Shown here: in pieces, positions 6,264 to 19,870 of the stretch
How positions within the stretch are numbered: position 1 is the stretch's first letter
How the letters are laid out: each line of letters opens with the position of its first letter
Assembly (NCBI GenBank): GCA_025453925.1
Contig: JALOPK010000019.1
Coordinates: forward strand, 1-19,894
Length of the DNA stretch: 19,894 nucleotides
Direction of reading: 5' to 3'
Origin: Candidatus Eiseniibacteriota bacterium
GTDB taxonomy: Bacteria > JAFGKV01
Program-made: the position numbers and the translations under genes
Notes under the pieces: model-generated
Databases searched by the model: none
What the model saw: only the letters and a program-made list of their open reading frames with translations
Told to the model about the DNA's origin: nothing

Positions 6264-7082
6264 ATGAAGGAACTGAACTTGGAGATCGGGGGTCTCCCCA
6301 CCACGATCGTGGTTCCGGAGGAGCCCATCGCCGCCGTGCTGCTCGACAGGTACGCCGCCTTTCTCGCGCCTTGCTCCACCGACGAGTCCGTGATCACGGT
6401 GGAGCTCCTGGGCGGGTCGCTGGAGCACGGCTACCGAGTGCCGACAATCGACATTACGGGCGACACGCTGACCGTGACGCGCCACGACCTCCACGCCCAC
6501 TCCCCGGACCAGGGGAGAACATGGCATGCCAGGATGATCGCCAACGAGTACACGTTCGACTCCTGCCTCCGGGTTCTGTACACACTGCGGCTTCTCCGGC
6601 ACGGGGGTTTTCTCGTCCATGCCAGCGCCCAGATCAGGAGCGGCGCCGGGTGTATCTTCACCGGCAAGAGCGAGGCCGGGAAGAGCACCATCAGCCGGCT
6701 CGGTGTCGACAATCTCGTGCTCTGCGACGAGCTTCCCTTGATCCGAAGGATTGAGGGCAGGTACCGGGTCTGGGGCACGCCCTTCTGGGGCGAGTTCGGC
6801 AAGGGCACCGTGACCGCCTCGGGCGAGGTGCGGGCGCTCTTCTTCCTCAACAAGGCTCCATTCAATCGCAGCGATCCCGTGAGCCGGGCGCGGGCGTTGC
6901 CCCGGTTGCTGCAGACCACGCTCTTCTTCTCGCGGGACCCCGCAATGGTCGACGCCGCCATGCGTCATTGCACAGACTTCCTCTCCACGATTCCCGCTTT
7001 CGATCTGTACAGCCGTCCCGAACCCGGCGTCTGGGAAGCGGTGGACGCGGCGCTCGAGGCGATCGGGCACGCCGCCCGATAG
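6264..7082 (+). CDS. HPr kinase-like P-loop protein (HprK-related), orphan
   Basis: This is a 272-residue protein of the HprK/PEPCK-like P-loop fold. The central signature is HASAQIRSGAGCIFTGKSEAGKS (about 119-141), with Walker A G134-KSEAGK-S141, followed by CDELPLI (154-160) and the GTPFWGEF block (171-178). These match HprK-related proteins often found beside PqqD-like and radical SAM peptide-modification genes, rather than true HPr kinase, whose N-terminal domain is absent. The first 100 residues resemble nothing I can name. No HPr, PqqD-like or precursor peptide gene is adjacent. A Shine-Dalgarno AGGAG precedes the ATG. It lies 63 nt after ilvE. A soluble kinase is likely, but its substrate is unknown. 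Confidence 0.8.
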   Translation: MKELNLEIGGLPTTIVVPEEPIAAVLLDRYAAFLAPCSTDESVITVELLGGSLEHGYRVPTIDITGDTLTVTRHDLHAHSPDQGRTWHARMIANEYTFDSCLRVLYTLRLLRHGGFLVHASAQIRSGAGCIFTGKSEAGKSTISRLGVDNLVLCDELPLIRRIEGRYRVWGTPFWGEFGKGTVTASGEVRALFFLNKAPFNRSDPVSRARALPRLLQTTLFFSRDPAMVDAAMRHCTDFLSTIPAFDLYSRPEPGVWEAVDAALEAIGHAAR

Positions 7083-7266: not shown

Positions 7267-8694
7267 TCACGGCAATGCGAGGACCGCTCCCTGGAGTATC
7301 TCCTTGGTCAGCAGGTTCTGCGCGAAGGCGATCAGCTCTCGCTCTCTGCCCCACCACCCCGAGGGAGTCGAGAACGGAGTGTCGAGCGTGTCGATTCCGC
7401 CGGGGGCGAGCACGAGCGGGTACCCGGCCGAACCGCTCGGGAAGGCGATGGCGGTACCGTAGAGATGATTGAAGCTCTGCCACGAGTAGAGCGTATCCAC
7501 GCCGGTCATGACCACCATGAGCCGCGCGTCAATCCCGGTACCGCCCAGATCCCTGCACACGGCGCGGAGTTGACCGCTGCCCGTCGCGGTTTCATACACG
7601 GGGAGAGAGAGCGTGATTTCCATCGTCGCCGGCAGCGATGCCCGCTGGTGGTATTCGGAAGTATAGTCGATGGGCGTGCTGGGGAGGCCGCCGATGCGGT
7701 CCACTGTCCCGTCAAACCACACGTGGGGGATGCCTATTACCCCGTAGAGATTCGCCCGATCCTGACCGGCGAGGATGCTGAATCCGTCGGAGAGGTGGTA
7801 GGCCACCATTGCCAGGCGCTCCCTGCCGACCGTCTGTTGGAGCGCGTGGAGGCCCATCATGGCGCCGGGGCAGTACGTGCACCACGTGCCCGTGAACTCC
7901 TCGGCCACCACGACGCGGGTTGCGCCCCCCGCGCCGATCGTGAGACCCACTACCACATCGTATCGTGGGGCATAGGGGTCGGTCGTGTAGATCTGAACAA
8001 TGCACTGATGCACATCGTCGGCGAGACCGGCGGAACGAACTGAGAGGGTGATAGTCCCCCTCGCGCCCGGGGGGAGATCCAGCGATGTGGGGGAAGCGGA
8101 TACCCACTCGCACCCTTCCGAAACCTGGGTGATGCTGCCTGTGGCCGAGCCTGCATTGACCACCGTGCAGGCAACTTCGGTTGAGTCCCCGGGTTCCAGA
8201 GCCAGGTTGAACAGGGTGGGACTCACTGTGATGCTCGCGGGACGCCCCTCGACCACCTCGACCTCCAGCGGAACGAGGAGTGCGGGAGCGGAGGGGTCAT
8301 TGCTCTCGATTCTGAGTCTTCCTTCATAGTCACCGCTCCCCGCGGACGACGCATCGGCGGTCAGGGTGGCGACCCCCTCGCCATGGGGTTGCACCGTCAA
8401 CGCGATCGGATCGCTGGTAATCCAGGGCAGGGTGCAGGTGATGCCGGTGATCTCAAGCACCCCTTCACCATCGTTGTAGATTACCACCGGCTCAGTCGCG
8501 GTCAGGCGCTCAGACACGACCATGGTGATTCTGGTTCGCTCGAGGCGAAGCGCGGGGTGTGTATCGCCATCATCCCCACAGGAGAGGACGAGAAGCCCGA
8601 CCATGCAGCCGAGCGCTGCCAGCGTTTCGCCACGCCGGTGTCGAGGCTGCGATCCCACGGGTGATCGAGGCTCAGCCGGTGTGGTCGGCGTCAT
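7267..8694 (-). CDS. lipoprotein with two Ig-like domains and an Omp28/thioredoxin-like domain
   Basis: This is a 475-residue exported protein. The N-terminus is long: a basic stretch, then the hydrophobic run LAALGCMVGLLVL and a lipobox-like LSC with C39, so a membrane-anchored lipoprotein is likely. Residues 45-150 and 150-255 are two beta-rich repeats of the choice-of-anchor/ASPM-Hydin type (SNDPSAPALLVPLEV; TTDPYAPRYDVVVGL). From about 260 a thioredoxin-like fold follows with EEFTGTWC272TYC275, IGIPHVWFDG and an Omp28-related C-terminal beta domain. The CxxC suggests an extracytoplasmic thiol-disulfide role; that is inference. The ATG at 8694 has GGAGG 6 nt upstream inside lysS, and the genes overlap by 23 nt, so translation is probably coupled. 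It is the last gene of the tatC-lysS operon. Confidence 0.82.
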   Translation of the reverse strand: MTPTTPAEPRSPVGSQPRHRRGETLAALGCMVGLLVLSCGDDGDTHPALRLERTRITMVVSERLTATEPVVIYNDGEGVLEITGITCTLPWITSDPIALTVQPHGEGVATLTADASSAGSGDYEGRLRIESNDPSAPALLVPLEVEVVEGRPASITVSPTLFNLALEPGDSTEVACTVVNAGSATGSITQVSEGCEWVSASPTSLDLPPGARGTITLSVRSAGLADDVHQCIVQIYTTDPYAPRYDVVVGLTIGAGGATRVVVAEEFTGTWCTYCPGAMMGLHALQQTVGRERLAMVAYHLSDGFSILAGQDRANLYGVIGIPHVWFDGTVDRIGGLPSTPIDYTSEYHQRASLPATMEITLSLPVYETATGSGQLRAVCRDLGGTGIDARLMVVMTGVDTLYSWQSFNHLYGTAIAFPSGSAGYPLVLAPGGIDTLDTPFSTPSGWWGRERELIAFAQNLLTKEILQGAVLALP

Positions 8695-14779: not shown

Positions 14780-15216
14780 CACGATTGGCGGGGCGAGGCC
14801 GCCCGCCGCATTCACGCAGACCTTGATTCGAATCGGACTCCCCCACATTCTCGTCACCGTGGCCGACCCTAATCACCGCTGGAAGAGGCTTCACACGATG
14901 ATGTACGCCGGCGCTTGCGCCCTGTTCCCGAATCCGTTACCTGCCCTCACCCATCCCGGGCTGGTTGCCCAAGCGCCCCGGGACGATGGCCGGGCTGACG
15001 ATACCCCCCCGTCACGATCTCGTGTGGAATCAGGGGGCCGTCCCCGATGAGCAACGCGCCGGAGCAACCGCGAGCCGAGGAAAGTTGTCGCCAGGCCGGC
15101 GGAGGCGGTCGCGTCGTCATCGTCTTCTCCCCCCCCGGCGCCGGGAGCCCTGCAGGGGCGAATCCTCGCCCTCCGGAGGCGGCCTCTCCTGCGCCTCCGA
15201 TCTTCCCCCGGCGAGC

Positions 15217-18200
15217 ATGCCTGCGATGATGCCCCAGACCGAGACGGCCACCGGGCCAAGTCGGACCGAGGCGTTTCTTGCCAAGCTTGACATCCAGCCT
15301 TCGGAATCCCTCGCGTACACCGATGACCTGACGGGACTCCCCAACCGCCGGTTTCTCGATCGTGCGCTGGACATGCTCATGGCCCGGGGATGCCCGTTCT
15401 CGCTGTTTTTCCTCGATCTGGACAACTTCAAGGCAGTCAACGACCTCCGCGGACATGCCGAGGGTGACCGGGTTATCCAGCGGTTCGCCGATTTGCTGAA
15501 CTCCAGCATCAGGGGAGACGACGTGCTGGCGCGGTATGGCGGCGACGAGTTCATCGTGCTGGTCGACGGTGGCGACTCCACCACGGCTGCCGCCATCGCC
15601 GCCCGCATCGTCAGTTCTGCGACGGCGACGCTGAAGCCGTTGTGGTCGGTGACTGCCAGCCTCGGTGTGGCCCGGTTTCCGGAGGATGCCCGGAGCAAGC
15701 ACGCTCTGCTCACCCTGGCGGACCGGGCCATGTACGCGGCAAAGGATGGAGGCAAGTCCTGCTGGCGGCGCGCCGGCTCTGAGGATCGCACGCTGTTCTG
15801 GCGCGAAGACGTGTTCATCGGCCGGGAAGACGAGATGGCCGTATTGGCAGCCCGATTGACGCCGGGAGCCCGGAATGCGCTTACCTTCGTCACGGGTGAG
15901 ACCGGTATGGGAAAGGCCACGCTGATCCAGCAGGCCCTCCTGAGCATTCCGGCGACCGTCAATCTGTTGGACATCCGCTGCACGTCCGAGCTCTCCGCCA
16001 TCCCCTATGCACCCCTTGTGGCGGCCCTGCGGACGGGTTGCTCGCGCTATGGCAAGCCTCAATTGCCGCCAGCGTGGACACGGGTTCTTTCGACGGTGCT
16101 TCCCGACCTGTTCCCGAGCGGCGAACCGGTGGCCCACCCGTTCGAGCGGGTCGCGGTGCTCCAGGCGGTGTCATCACTGTTGAGCGCCTGGCGTCCCCTG
16201 GCGGTGATCGTGCGAGACGGACATCTGGTGGACCGCGAGACCGCTGAGGCCTTGATCTATCTGTATCAGGTCGGCATGCCGGACCACTTGGCCATGTGTT
16301 GTTCGCTCGACGGCACGCGGGTCAATGGCAGGAAGGGCCATGCCGGCCTGCTGACGGGGCTCTCCGATGCCGTGACCGTGGAACTGCGCCCTCTTCGCCG
16401 TGACCATATCCGGGAGCTCATTCGCCAGCGCGTGGGTGCCCAGGACGTCTCTGATGAGCTGGTGGAGAACATCCAACGGGCATCCGGGGGCATGCCGCTC
16501 ATCGCGAACGACATGGTGCGGGTCCTGCTGGAATCAGGAGTCTTCGCCCCTGCAGGCCAGCCAGGTCAAGCGTACGACGCATTGCCCGCCGTCGTCTCGG
16601 AACGAATTGCGGGCATGGTGGATGAGAAGCTGTCAGCGCTCTCCGACGATGAGCGACTGGTCATCCTTCATGCAGCGGCCGCGGAGGGCAGGTTCGACGC
16701 GGATCTCCTCAAGGATTTGACCGGCCAGTCGGAAGGCGAAGTGCTCACCGCGCTGGACCGGTCGAGACGGCTGGGCCTTTTGAAGGAAGACGCAGCCGAT
16801 CCATTCGCCTTCGACTTCGTGAACGAAGTATTTCGCGAGGAGGTGCTCCGATCCGCGGATATGGCCTCCCGCCGCCGTGTCCACCTCAGGATGGCCGACC
16901 ATCTGCGGCTCACTGAGTTGCATGCCGCCAGGGCCCGCCACCTGGAGCGGGGAGGCGAGTGCCTCGAGGCGGTGAGAGCCCACATTCAGGCCGCACGGCA
17001 ATCGGCGGCCAAGTTGCTCCCTCAGGTCGCCTTGCATCATCTGTCCCAGGCGGAGCGCCTCCGTGAGCGCATGCCACCGGACAGCCTGCCCTATGCAGAA
17101 GTCGAGGCACTGTGGGGCGGGCTGGCAATGCTGTTCTACCACTGCGATTCGCCGGAGGAAGCGCGGACGGTTCACCTTCGTCTCGCCGAGGCCTGTGCGG
17201 CCCGTGGCGATTCGCCGTCTGCGGACAAGCAGCGTTACCGCGCGGCGGTCATGCTGCGGATCTTGGGTCGGCTCGACGAGGCGCTGCTCGAGCTCGAACC
17301 CTTGGGCCGGCGCGCGCTCCCCGACCTGCGGGTTCAGGCTCTGTTAGAGCAGGTCGACTGCTTGGCACGATTGGGACGAACAGCCGAAGCGGGGGACATC
17401 CTGGCACAAGCGCGTCCGCGCCTTCACGCGACCAAGGCAGATGCGGCTCAGTGGCGGCTGTACTACCATGCCATGATGCTGGCAGCCATCGGCCAGGGGT
17501 CATTCCCCACCGCCGAGAGGGCGGCAATGACCACCGTCCGCGGGCTGCCCGACAGCTCCGATGCGTGGTGGTACCACCACGATCTGGCCGAAACCTGCCT
17601 CCTCAACGGCAAGCCGCTCACCGCCTCACGCCACTTCGCCCACAGCCAACGCCTGGCGGCCATGGGGCCTTCGATCATGGGTGAAATCTGGACGCGGCTC
17701 GGCGTGGCGAACACCCAGTACCACCTTGGCCGGCCAGAGGATGCCCTGGTCACGATAGAGGAGGCAGACGAGCTGATACACAAGACAAAGGACCATCAGG
17801 CTCGCCTCGGCGCCTGCCTTCACCGGGCCAGAGTCAAGCTGGATCTTGGAGACGCAGGAGCCGCCCGCGCTGCCGCAGAAGCGGCAGCGGCATTGTCAGC
17901 GAGCGCGGCGGCGGTGGACTACGTCCGCTCGCTCGTTGCCTACGCGTGTGGAGACGTGCCTGAGGCCCTCCACTGCATCAATGCGGCGCTGGAGAAGGAT
18001 GCGGCGGCACCTACTCCGCTGCAACTGATCAGCGGAATCCTCCTGACGGTGGCGGATCTCGAGATACAACGGGAGGCGGTGGCCGCACGGCAGGGAGATG
18101 CCTGCGGCGTGTTGGCCAGGCTCGGGCCGAGAGCCCGCGGTTTCTACCCTCGGGCCGTGCTCCGTGCCTTGGGCGTGCTGGCGGAGTGTGCCTACGGCGA

Positions 18201-18381
18201 GGGAGACGCGGAGGGGGCAGCCGCGCTGTATCGCGAAGCATTGGCGCTCTCCCCGGGGCGCCAGGAAGTGAGGGAACGACAGCTTCTCGTCAAGGCATGG
18301 GGAGCGTGGAGCCCGGAGGCGTCTCAATTCGAGAAACTCGTCCGACCGCGCCGACGGATCAGCCCGGCACGAGCCCGGTGA
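15217..18381 (+). CDS. GGDEF diguanylate cyclase fused to AAA/STAND-like ATPase and TPR region
   Basis: About 1054 residues, no signal peptide, cytoplasmic. The GGDEF domain (about 33-190) has DDLTGLPNRR (36-45), a full active site RYG108-GDEF, and an RxxD inhibitory site (R99-GDD) exactly five residues before it, so c-di-GMP synthesis with product feedback is expected. From FIGRE (200-204) an AAA_16/MalT-like NTPase module follows. Its Walker A is G227ETGMGKA, with Ala in place of the Mg-binding Ser/Thr, and its Walker B region is VIVRDGH (330-336), with Arg where the first Asp is usual. From about 600 to the end the chain is helical with TPR-like repeats (LRILGRLDEALLELEPLG, NTQYHLGRPEDALVTIEEA). 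The start is uncertain: the ATG at 15217 has a weak ribosome site, with ATGs at 15226 and 15229 close by. The 3' end overlaps the convergent radical SAM gene by 23 nt. Confidence 0.87.
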   Translation: MPAMMPQTETATGPSRTEAFLAKLDIQPSESLAYTDDLTGLPNRRFLDRALDMLMARGCPFSLFFLDLDNFKAVNDLRGHAEGDRVIQRFADLLNSSIRGDDVLARYGGDEFIVLVDGGDSTTAAAIAARIVSSATATLKPLWSVTASLGVARFPEDARSKHALLTLADRAMYAAKDGGKSCWRRAGSEDRTLFWREDVFIGREDEMAVLAARLTPGARNALTFVTGETGMGKATLIQQALLSIPATVNLLDIRCTSELSAIPYAPLVAALRTGCSRYGKPQLPPAWTRVLSTVLPDLFPSGEPVAHPFERVAVLQAVSSLLSAWRPLAVIVRDGHLVDRETAEALIYLYQVGMPDHLAMCCSLDGTRVNGRKGHAGLLTGLSDAVTVELRPLRRDHIRELIRQRVGAQDVSDELVENIQRASGGMPLIANDMVRVLLESGVFAPAGQPGQAYDALPAVVSERIAGMVDEKLSALSDDERLVILHAAAAEGRFDADLLKDLTGQSEGEVLTALDRSRRLGLLKEDAADPFAFDFVNEVFREEVLRSADMASRRRVHLRMADHLRLTELHAARARHLERGGECLEAVRAHIQAARQSAAKLLPQVALHHLSQAERLRERMPPDSLPYAEVEALWGGLAMLFYHCDSPEEARTVHLRLAEACAARGDSPSADKQRYRAAVMLRILGRLDEALLELEPLGRRALPDLRVQALLEQVDCLARLGRTAEAGDILAQARPRLHATKADAAQWRLYYHAMMLAAIGQGSFPTAERAAMTTVRGLPDSSDAWWYHHDLAETCLLNGKPLTASRHFAHSQRLAAMGPSIMGEIWTRLGVANTQYHLGRPEDALVTIEEADELIHKTKDHQARLGACLHRARVKLDLGDAGAARAAAEAAAALSASAAAVDYVRSLVAYACGDVPEALHCINAALEKDAAAPTPLQLISGILLTVADLEIQREAVAARQGDACGVLARLGPRARGFYPRAVLRALGVLAECAYGEGDAEGAAALYREALALSPGRQEVRERQLLVKAWGAWSPEASQFEKLVRPRRRISPARAR

Positions 18382-19870
18382 CGCGATCCAACCGCCTGAT
18401 GAGCGCGTGCCTTCGGAGCTTCTCCTCGCGCGGCACCCCGTCGGTCCAGTGCAGGCAGATGGCATCGAGGCTTCCTCGGAGATGGGCGGCTTCAGCCGGC
18501 AGCGGAAGGTGAAACGGAATCAAATCGATCCCCCAGCGAGCGGGATCCCTGAACATGGGGGAGTAGGGTTCCACCCGCAGGATGTCCGGGGAGCCCCAGG
18601 TGATCCTCGACCACTGTCGGGCATCGCTGATGGATTTCTTGAACTGCCGGAGCAGAGCGTACATCTCCAACACCTCATCATCGGTCTCCCCCGGCGCGCA
18701 ACACATTCGGTGCACGGTGGGCTGAATCCCGGCCGCACTGAGATGGCGGGTGGTGTCGAGGATCCACTCGACCTTCGTGCCTTTGCGCATCGCCTCCAAC
18801 GCCCGGGGAATAAGGGTCTCGGCTCCGATGTTCACGCTGCGGCATCCGGCTCTGAATGCCTGCGCGGCGAGATCGGAGGTCAGCCAGGGCGCGGGCCGCA
18901 TGTCGCACGTCCAGTCCACAGGCATCCGCGCGTTGATCAGGCCGTGCGTCAGCGCGTGGAGCCTCCCCTGTGACGGATTGACAAGACTGTCCACGAACTC
19001 GATGTGCATCGGCCCATGTTTCCGCGTGAGCCGGTTCACCTCATCCACGACCACGGCAACGCTGCGCTGGCGGTGTGTTCGCCAGTACTGGCTCTCGGAG
19101 CAGAACGCACACCTCATGGTGCAGCCCCGGGTGGTCTCAACGGGAGCATACCCCTGCGGCGCCTCCGGGAAAGTAGTGGCCGGAAGCGAATCGAGATCGA
19201 GAAGGGGACGGGGAAGGTAGCGAACATCGCCGCCTTCGAGGATCGCGACCCCTGGCACCTCCGCGGGCGGGCCCGTCGTAGGCCAGTTCTCCAGCAGGTC
19301 GCCTATCGTCGCTTCCCCCTCACCCACCACCACGGAGTCCACGAATCCGGTCCGCAGCAGGAAGTCCGTGGTCTCCGGCATACCTGCTCCGGGGCCTCCG
19401 AAGATGATCCGAATCGGGCTCCGCCGCTTCAGCTCGCGGGCGAGGACCGTGCTGAAGAGCAGATTGCTGGAATAGGTCGAGAATAGGGCAAAATCGTACT
19501 TTGCCGCACCAATCCGATCGGCGGCCAGCGACACGAAGTGCTCGAATCCATCGACCGGGAGCACCGGACTGGTCCGCAGGATTTCAGCCCACGGTACCTG
19601 GGGAGCGTCCCGATGGTACAAGGCGTGCAGCAGAACTTCGAGGCCGAGAATGAAGGTGACGCGATCGAACTCACGCCCGATGTTGTTGGCCCGCACGTAC
19701 TGGTCGTACCAGAGCCGGTCGGTGTCCTTCAGCCACGTGTCGAGATCGAACACGTCGGGCTCGTACCCTGAGTTGACCAGGGCCGTGTAGATCCTGGCGA
19801 GGCCCAAGTGAGGGCTCCTGATGGAGAAGTATGGGCAGAACACCAGCGCAATGCGATCGGAACGACTCAT
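18359..19870 (-). CDS. B12-binding-domain radical SAM protein
   Basis: A 503-residue enzyme. The N-terminal half resembles the cobalamin-binding Rossmann domain of class B radical SAM proteins: PHLGLARIYTALVNSGYEPDVFD (20-42), IRIIFGGPGAGMPE (153-166) and FVDSVVVGEGE (176-186). The radical SAM barrel follows with ETTRGC250TMRC254AFC257 (CX3CX2C), which binds the 4Fe-4S cluster, then HIEFVDS and the conserved SVNIGAET. Typical reactions include methylation at unactivated carbons and ring formation in lipids or natural products. The substrate cannot be told here. AGGAG lies 4 nt before the ATG. The upstream neighbours are outside the window. A B12-free member of the same class is possible, as no DxHxxG cobalamin motif is obvious. 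Confidence 0.85.
   Translation of the reverse strand: MSRSDRIALVFCPYFSIRSPHLGLARIYTALVNSGYEPDVFDLDTWLKDTDRLWYDQYVRANNIGREFDRVTFILGLEVLLHALYHRDAPQVPWAEILRTSPVLPVDGFEHFVSLAADRIGAAKYDFALFSTYSSNLLFSTVLARELKRRSPIRIIFGGPGAGMPETTDFLLRTGFVDSVVVGEGEATIGDLLENWPTTGPPAEVPGVAILEGGDVRYLPRPLLDLDSLPATTFPEAPQGYAPVETTRGCTMRCAFCSESQYWRTHRQRSVAVVVDEVNRLTRKHGPMHIEFVDSLVNPSQGRLHALTHGLINARMPVDWTCDMRPAPWLTSDLAAQAFRAGCRSVNIGAETLIPRALEAMRKGTKVEWILDTTRHLSAAGIQPTVHRMCCAPGETDDEVLEMYALLRQFKKSISDARQWSRITWGSPDILRVEPYSPMFRDPARWGIDLIPFHLPLPAEAAHLRGSLDAICLHWTDGVPREEKLRRHALIRRLDRVTGLVPG

Follow-up and report, generated by a model that had tools for sequence, protein, structure and literature searches.

The gene at positions 15217–18381 of the window, the whole 19,894-nucleotide stretch of contig JALOPK010000019.1 that was analysed, encodes a plausible product-inhibited c-di-GMP synthase built on a STAND-derived scaffold. 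We slightly favour the reading (probability about 0.55) that this protein is a soluble diguanylate cyclase regulated through a STAND-type oligomerisation platform that senses by its TPRs, probably without NTP hydrolysis or a Mg-ATP switch. Relatives in many bacteria keep the Mg-ATP residues that are lost here, and we therefore suspect that the switch may now work without burning ATP.

The gene is a single unbroken frame of 1054 codons plus stop on the forward strand. Its ATG at 15217 is the presumed start codon, an upstream in-frame TTG at 14965 being less likely, because similarity to the ortholog starts near residue 15. The following features can be delineated:

15217..18381, forward strand: whole gene, GGDEF-(degenerate STAND NOD)-TPR, 1054 aa
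15313..15759, forward strand: GGDEF diguanylate cyclase domain, residues 33–181 (Pfam PF00990, E 1.1e-38; PDB GGDEF structures)
15511..15522, forward strand: I-site R99-G-D-D102, the product-inhibition site (sequence, alignment)
15538..15552, forward strand: GGDEF signature, residues 108–112 (sequence, alignment)
15814..16386, forward strand: NBD of the STAND NOD, residues ~200–390 (Pfam AAA_16 at 200–352, E 3.2e-11; NOD model)
15895..15918, forward strand: degenerate Walker A GETGMGKA, residues 227–234 (A234 codon gcc, 15916–15918)
16198..16218, forward strand: degenerate Walker B LAVIVRD, residues 328–334 (R333 codon cga, 16213–16215)
16486..16497, forward strand: GxP-type motif of the helical domain, GGMP, residues 424–427 (alignment)
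16600..16854, forward strand: winged-helix domain, residues ~462–546 (model and motif alignment)
16822–16824, forward strand: N536, at the predicted position of the ADP β-phosphate His (from its place in the domain)
16861..18342, forward strand: arm and TPR superhelix, residues ~549–1042 (weak Pfam matches, model, structural matches)

The Pfam matches to GGDEF and AAA_16 both lie above cut-off; single TPR models reach residue 1019 but fall below theirs. The STAND-type nucleotide-binding module spans about residues 200–546, a repeat-type sensor (TPR) is present and the effector domain sits at one end, as the STAND class demands. The highest 19-residue Kyte–Doolittle mean across the protein is 1.53, too low for a membrane helix, which agrees with the preliminary description of a protein with no membrane sensor.

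At its 3′ end the gene overlaps by 23 bases with a convergent gene (18359–19870, reverse strand) encoding a B12-binding radical SAM protein, which reaches no NCBIfam equivalog cut-off. Elsewhere in the window, a gene at 6264–7082 (forward strand) encodes a P-loop protein (TGKSEAGKST) that is HPr-kinase-like by eye and matches no Pfam family above cut-off. Another gene (7267–8694, reverse strand) encodes a predicted secreted protein in which a thioredoxin-like region with CxxC (WCTYCP) comes after a HYDIN-like Ig domain; L112 has a syntenic ortholog.

The GGDEF signature and the RxxD inhibitory site had been described as intact, and the alignment agrees in both residues and spacing. R99-G-D-D102 is followed after five residues by G108-G-D-E-F112, a canonical geometry with a spacing that we take to be the same as in PleD, and RxxD is retained in 20 of the 22 family members possessing a GGDEF domain. 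The Mg/GTP-site residues D67, N75, D84 and K176 are all present, and the GGDEF part of the full structural model matches PDB GGDEF structures with VIA Z of 22–24. Binding of c-di-GMP at the I-site inhibits diguanylate cyclases. A cGAMP-type (Hypr) cyclase is disfavoured, since D84, presumably the guanine-site residue, is Asp where the presumably Hypr/cGAMP-type 6d9m has Ser; c-di-GMP is therefore the favoured product. The genome that carries the gene (G000, 82% complete) encodes 12 GGDEF and 7 HD_5 (HD-GYP-type) domains, making c-di-GMP turnover plausible there. The same genome gives zero EAL and PilZ matches; its c-di-GMP turnover apparently dispenses with EAL enzymes and PilZ receptors, the customary components. 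Two GGDEF-STAND relatives from another lineage (L047 4340–7951 and L087 919–4542) display the reverse pattern of degeneration, with AGDEF and a lost I-site (R to S/A, D to G) next to intact Walker motifs.

The middle module, originally called AAA/STAND-like, yields only weak sequence matches in the PDB (MalT, E 0.066), so a fold search was needed. The full AlphaFold model (mean pLDDT 83.7; pTM 0.60, which leaves the domain arrangement uncertain) contains the GGDEF fold, a P-loop domain of alpha/beta type and a winged helix, followed past residue 549 by some 25 consecutive helices. Its best PDB match in Foldseek is PH0952, a STAND with a TPR sensor (3.8e-13). Because the VIA list of the full model was filled with GGDEF and TPR matches, the NOD was folded separately (pLDDT 87.4, pTM 0.79). 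The leading Foldseek matches of the NOD-only model are MalT (8bob_C, 8.6e-11), PH0952 (6mfv, 5.3e-10) and CED-4 (1.4e-9), and VIA aligns it to CED-4 with Z 20.7 across 327 residues. The model shows the STAND layout of NBD, helical domain and winged helix, and together these matches identify the module by fold as a MalT-like STAND NOD. The NOD-only model lies nearer to open active STANDs (CED-4, rmsd ~5) than to the closed ADP forms of Apaf-1 (1z6t) and MalT (8bob) (rmsd ~20), a weak hint that may reflect the AlphaFold choice of state. The proposed long TPR array also holds, given the helix run and the superposition of residues 659–1018 on MalT domain III (1hz4; Z 22.4, 344 residues, rmsd 4.2). 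A peptide ligand, as the likeness of the TPR part to the Rap/NprR peptide receptors (Z 24–26) might suggest, is not accepted because TPR superhelices match broadly.

Both Walker motifs are correctly placed in the model: the P-loop lies between strand 221–227 and helix 233–241, and R333 ends strand 328–333. The replacement of GKS/T by GKA and of a DD-type Walker B by VRD, as first reported, is borne out by comparison with relatives. The final Walker A residue is S/T in 21/21 other members covering the site and Ala in none (0/21), and the first Walker B position is D/E in 21/22 other members. The sole exception is the syntenic ortholog from the same genus, which reads VTD, yet GKS. In the Walker B context, L-A-V-I-V-R333-D334-G-H336, the second Asp and the His do remain; seven other members, including four from the protein's own subfamily, have N at the second acidic position. 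Still present are K233 and D334, the glycines of the P-loop and the GxP-type motif, whose G425 and P427 are conserved in every member covering that site. N536, which probably corresponds to PH0952 H382 judging from its place just after the β-hairpin, is Asn in 7/7 subfamily members and His in five other members; in resting STANDs the winged-helix His contacts the ADP β-phosphate (PMC6468293, PMC10427625). As for the two alternatives raised in the preliminary description, Pfam and the model both give 227–234 as the P-loop, with no second one and no canonical Walker motifs in any other part of the sequence, and GKA/RD is not the standard of the family: neither GKA nor RD occurs in the 22 other family members. 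GKA is also missing from about 16 further AAA_16-TPR proteins, in only some of which Walker B was read.

A profile search finds the order GGDEF-NOD-TPR in 13 of 386 sampled genomes (the protein's own, G001, G002, G005, G292, G230, G128, G221, G370, G242, G329, G198 and G175), a lower bound, as two candidates were scored per genome. Three more members come from scanning the phylum of G370 (42 genomes); the sample includes just three genomes of the source organism's phylum, a poorly sampled lineage. The domain order is uncommon, as had been proposed, but it recurs and so is not unique. Among the 23 aligned members AAA_16 is present in all and GGDEF in 22, the remaining one being cut at a contig end. 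Trees place the protein in a subfamily of seven, with its ortholog and L092, L094, L103, L104 and L105 (100/100 support); these members span two phylum-level groups, with the linker and all modules conserved. The source genome also carries a second STAND-TPR protein (L038, G000:C296:3-2357), cut at the contig start; it is a relative of L042, a GGDEF-STAND-TPR paralog of canonical type, and its Walker B reads VED. Genome G002, from the same family as the source genome, shows a lineage expansion to four GGDEF-STAND genes (on contigs C49, C179, C5 and C252), one of which is truncated by the end of its contig.

When the trait columns are left out of the tree building, loss of the first Walker B acid takes one change and loss of the second takes two. 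The degeneration is lineage-specific and stepwise, with first-acid loss only in this genus. Because the same-genus ortholog has VTD but GKS, a single loss of the Walker B acid preceded the change of Walker A Ser to Ala in the protein under study. This ortholog matches over the full length (56–57% identity) in a conserved gene neighbourhood, with four neighbouring genes in the same order, and a scan of genome contigs found only this known ortholog. The neighbourhood comparison gave no conserved operon partner outside the genus and no neighbour gene in common with the members from the other phylum.

These comparisons bear on whether the Walker changes mean anything at all. They would be functionally meaningless if they came from neutral drift, from a gene beginning to decay or from an error in the MAG assembly; this seems most improbable, even though A234 is seen in one draft MAG only and could have arisen from Ser by a change of one base: the Walker B loss is common to a second genome of the genus (T for D/E), no interruption occurs in the 1054-codon frame, and conservation is as in adjacent genes. 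The full-length ortholog identity of 57% compares with 56.5–69% for syntenic neighbours, and third codon positions of the ortholog pair are 36–51% identical versus 71–86% for second positions. By part, identity is 72.5% in GGDEF, 55.6% in the AAA core and ~51% in the TPR region, so the degenerate module decays no faster than the TPR part. The protein is evidently not decaying and is presumably retained under selection as a fold joining the sensor to the cyclase.

STANDs are described as closed ADP-bound monomers that open on an inducer, swap ADP for ATP and multimerise, hydrolysis resetting them (PMC4381067, PMC6468293, PMC10427625), and two GGDEF domains have to meet for activity (PMC7825114). 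We hypothesize that a ligand or protein partner would bind the TPRs and shift the NOD/arm arrangement or the assembly, and that this change would join two GGDEF domains for c-di-GMP synthesis, with the product feeding back via the I-site. Across the GGDEF-STAND-TPR family, STAND assembly may bring GGDEF domains together. In the protein studied here both Mg2+-binding side chains are gone, which makes hydrolysis unlikely and points to a switch that is either nucleotide-free or non-hydrolysing; from its residues, the NOD probably cannot hydrolyse ATP. That nucleotide switching was abandoned altogether, with Arg substituting for the Mg2+-binding Asp and binding of a ligand or partner to the TPRs alone assembling the GGDEF domains, is a tentative and rather unlikely version. 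If true, the NLR/MalT switch would here have given rise to a nucleotide-independent form that is coupled to c-di-GMP, and the protein's relatives would show the steps of the loss: the second acid to Asn in a sister branch and, in this genus, the first acid to Thr/Arg followed by Ser to Ala. Against the favoured reading of a platform without a Mg-ATP switch count the retention of K233 and D334 and the ability of MalT to multimerise with ADP (PMC6468293, PMC10427625), so the module may still have a nucleotide role.

The same retained residues, together with the P-loop glycines and GxP, fit a NOD that is still a nucleotide switch, one binding ADP or ATP without hydrolysis and reaching, by ATP binding alone, an on-state unable to reset itself. 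A P-loop that does not hydrolyse may nonetheless bind ATP or ADP; such a variant could perhaps be Mg-free, with R333 neutralising the phosphates. According to PMC4381067, STAND hydrolysis returns the protein to rest rather than activating it, so its loss would bias the switch to "on"; the open-like NOD-only model suits this as well, although the AlphaFold state is weak evidence. However, both Mg2+-binding side chains are lost together and the presumed ADP β-phosphate His is Asn in the subfamily, and we regard this rival as possible but unlikely. It is improbable that the STAND-TPR part is a mere localisation or scaffold tail behind a constitutive GGDEF domain controlled mainly by the I-site. 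Such a tail would fit the lack of an N-terminal sensor, the degenerate NOD and the intact I-site, but against it stand the conservation of linker and modules between phylum-level groups and the retention of the order by relatives with intact ATPase motifs, which suggest regulatory coupling.

Each of GGDEF, STAND and TPR is known, as are inactive STANDs in other systems (PMC7159879); searches of open-licence papers gave no description or characterisation of a GGDEF-STAND-TPR protein. In this protein c-di-GMP synthesis and the STAND/NLR/MalT platform, both well-studied switches, are combined in a single soluble molecule bearing no membrane or receiver sensor, which adds a recurrent type of diguanylate cyclase input for uncultured bacteria. 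PADLOC gave zero matches, so a defence system is not favoured.

MalT of E. coli and PH0952 of P. horikoshii, the best structural matches, share the layout NBD-HD-WHD-arm-TPR with the protein, and PH0952 likewise carries its effector at the N-terminal end. Here, however, the part of the effector is played by a GGDEF enzyme and not by a DNA-binding domain, Asn stands at the predicted winged-helix His position, and the Mg-NTP motifs have both degenerated. PleD/WspR-type cyclases are alike in catalytic residues and I-site geometry (Z ~22) but have a REC input domain that is missing here, where the cyclase must receive its regulatory input from its C-terminal side. In soluble adenylyl cyclase-like class III cyclase-AAA-TPR proteins, too, a cyclase precedes a P-loop module and helical repeats; the present protein has GGDEF instead of a class III cyclase, and its P-loop is degenerate.

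The iSTAND proteins of MoxR-vWA ternary conflict systems have a degenerate STAND core, sometimes with an N-terminal nucleotide-signal enzyme (PMC7159879). The catalytically degenerate core is a shared trait, whereas direct GGDEF fusion and a TPR sensor set our protein apart, and Pfam finds neither MoxR nor vWA among the nearest genes on both sides, the contig stopping 1.5 kb downstream. The protein lacks both the GK[S/T] end of Walker A and the first acid of the hhhh[D/E][D/E] Walker B of STAND ATPases, and because these two NTPase motifs fail despite fold and descent, we file it as a degenerate STAND and not as a STAND ATPase. Its closest counterparts in architecture, the GGDEF-STAND-TPR relatives L042–L045 and L088–L098, have the same order and similar length and mostly keep RxxD and GGDEF/AGDEF, but they have S/T intact in Walker A and an acidic residue at the first position of Walker B. 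Some belong to the same bacterial family, and set against the degenerate pair they offer a comparison for asking whether Mg-ATP is strictly required in STAND assembly.
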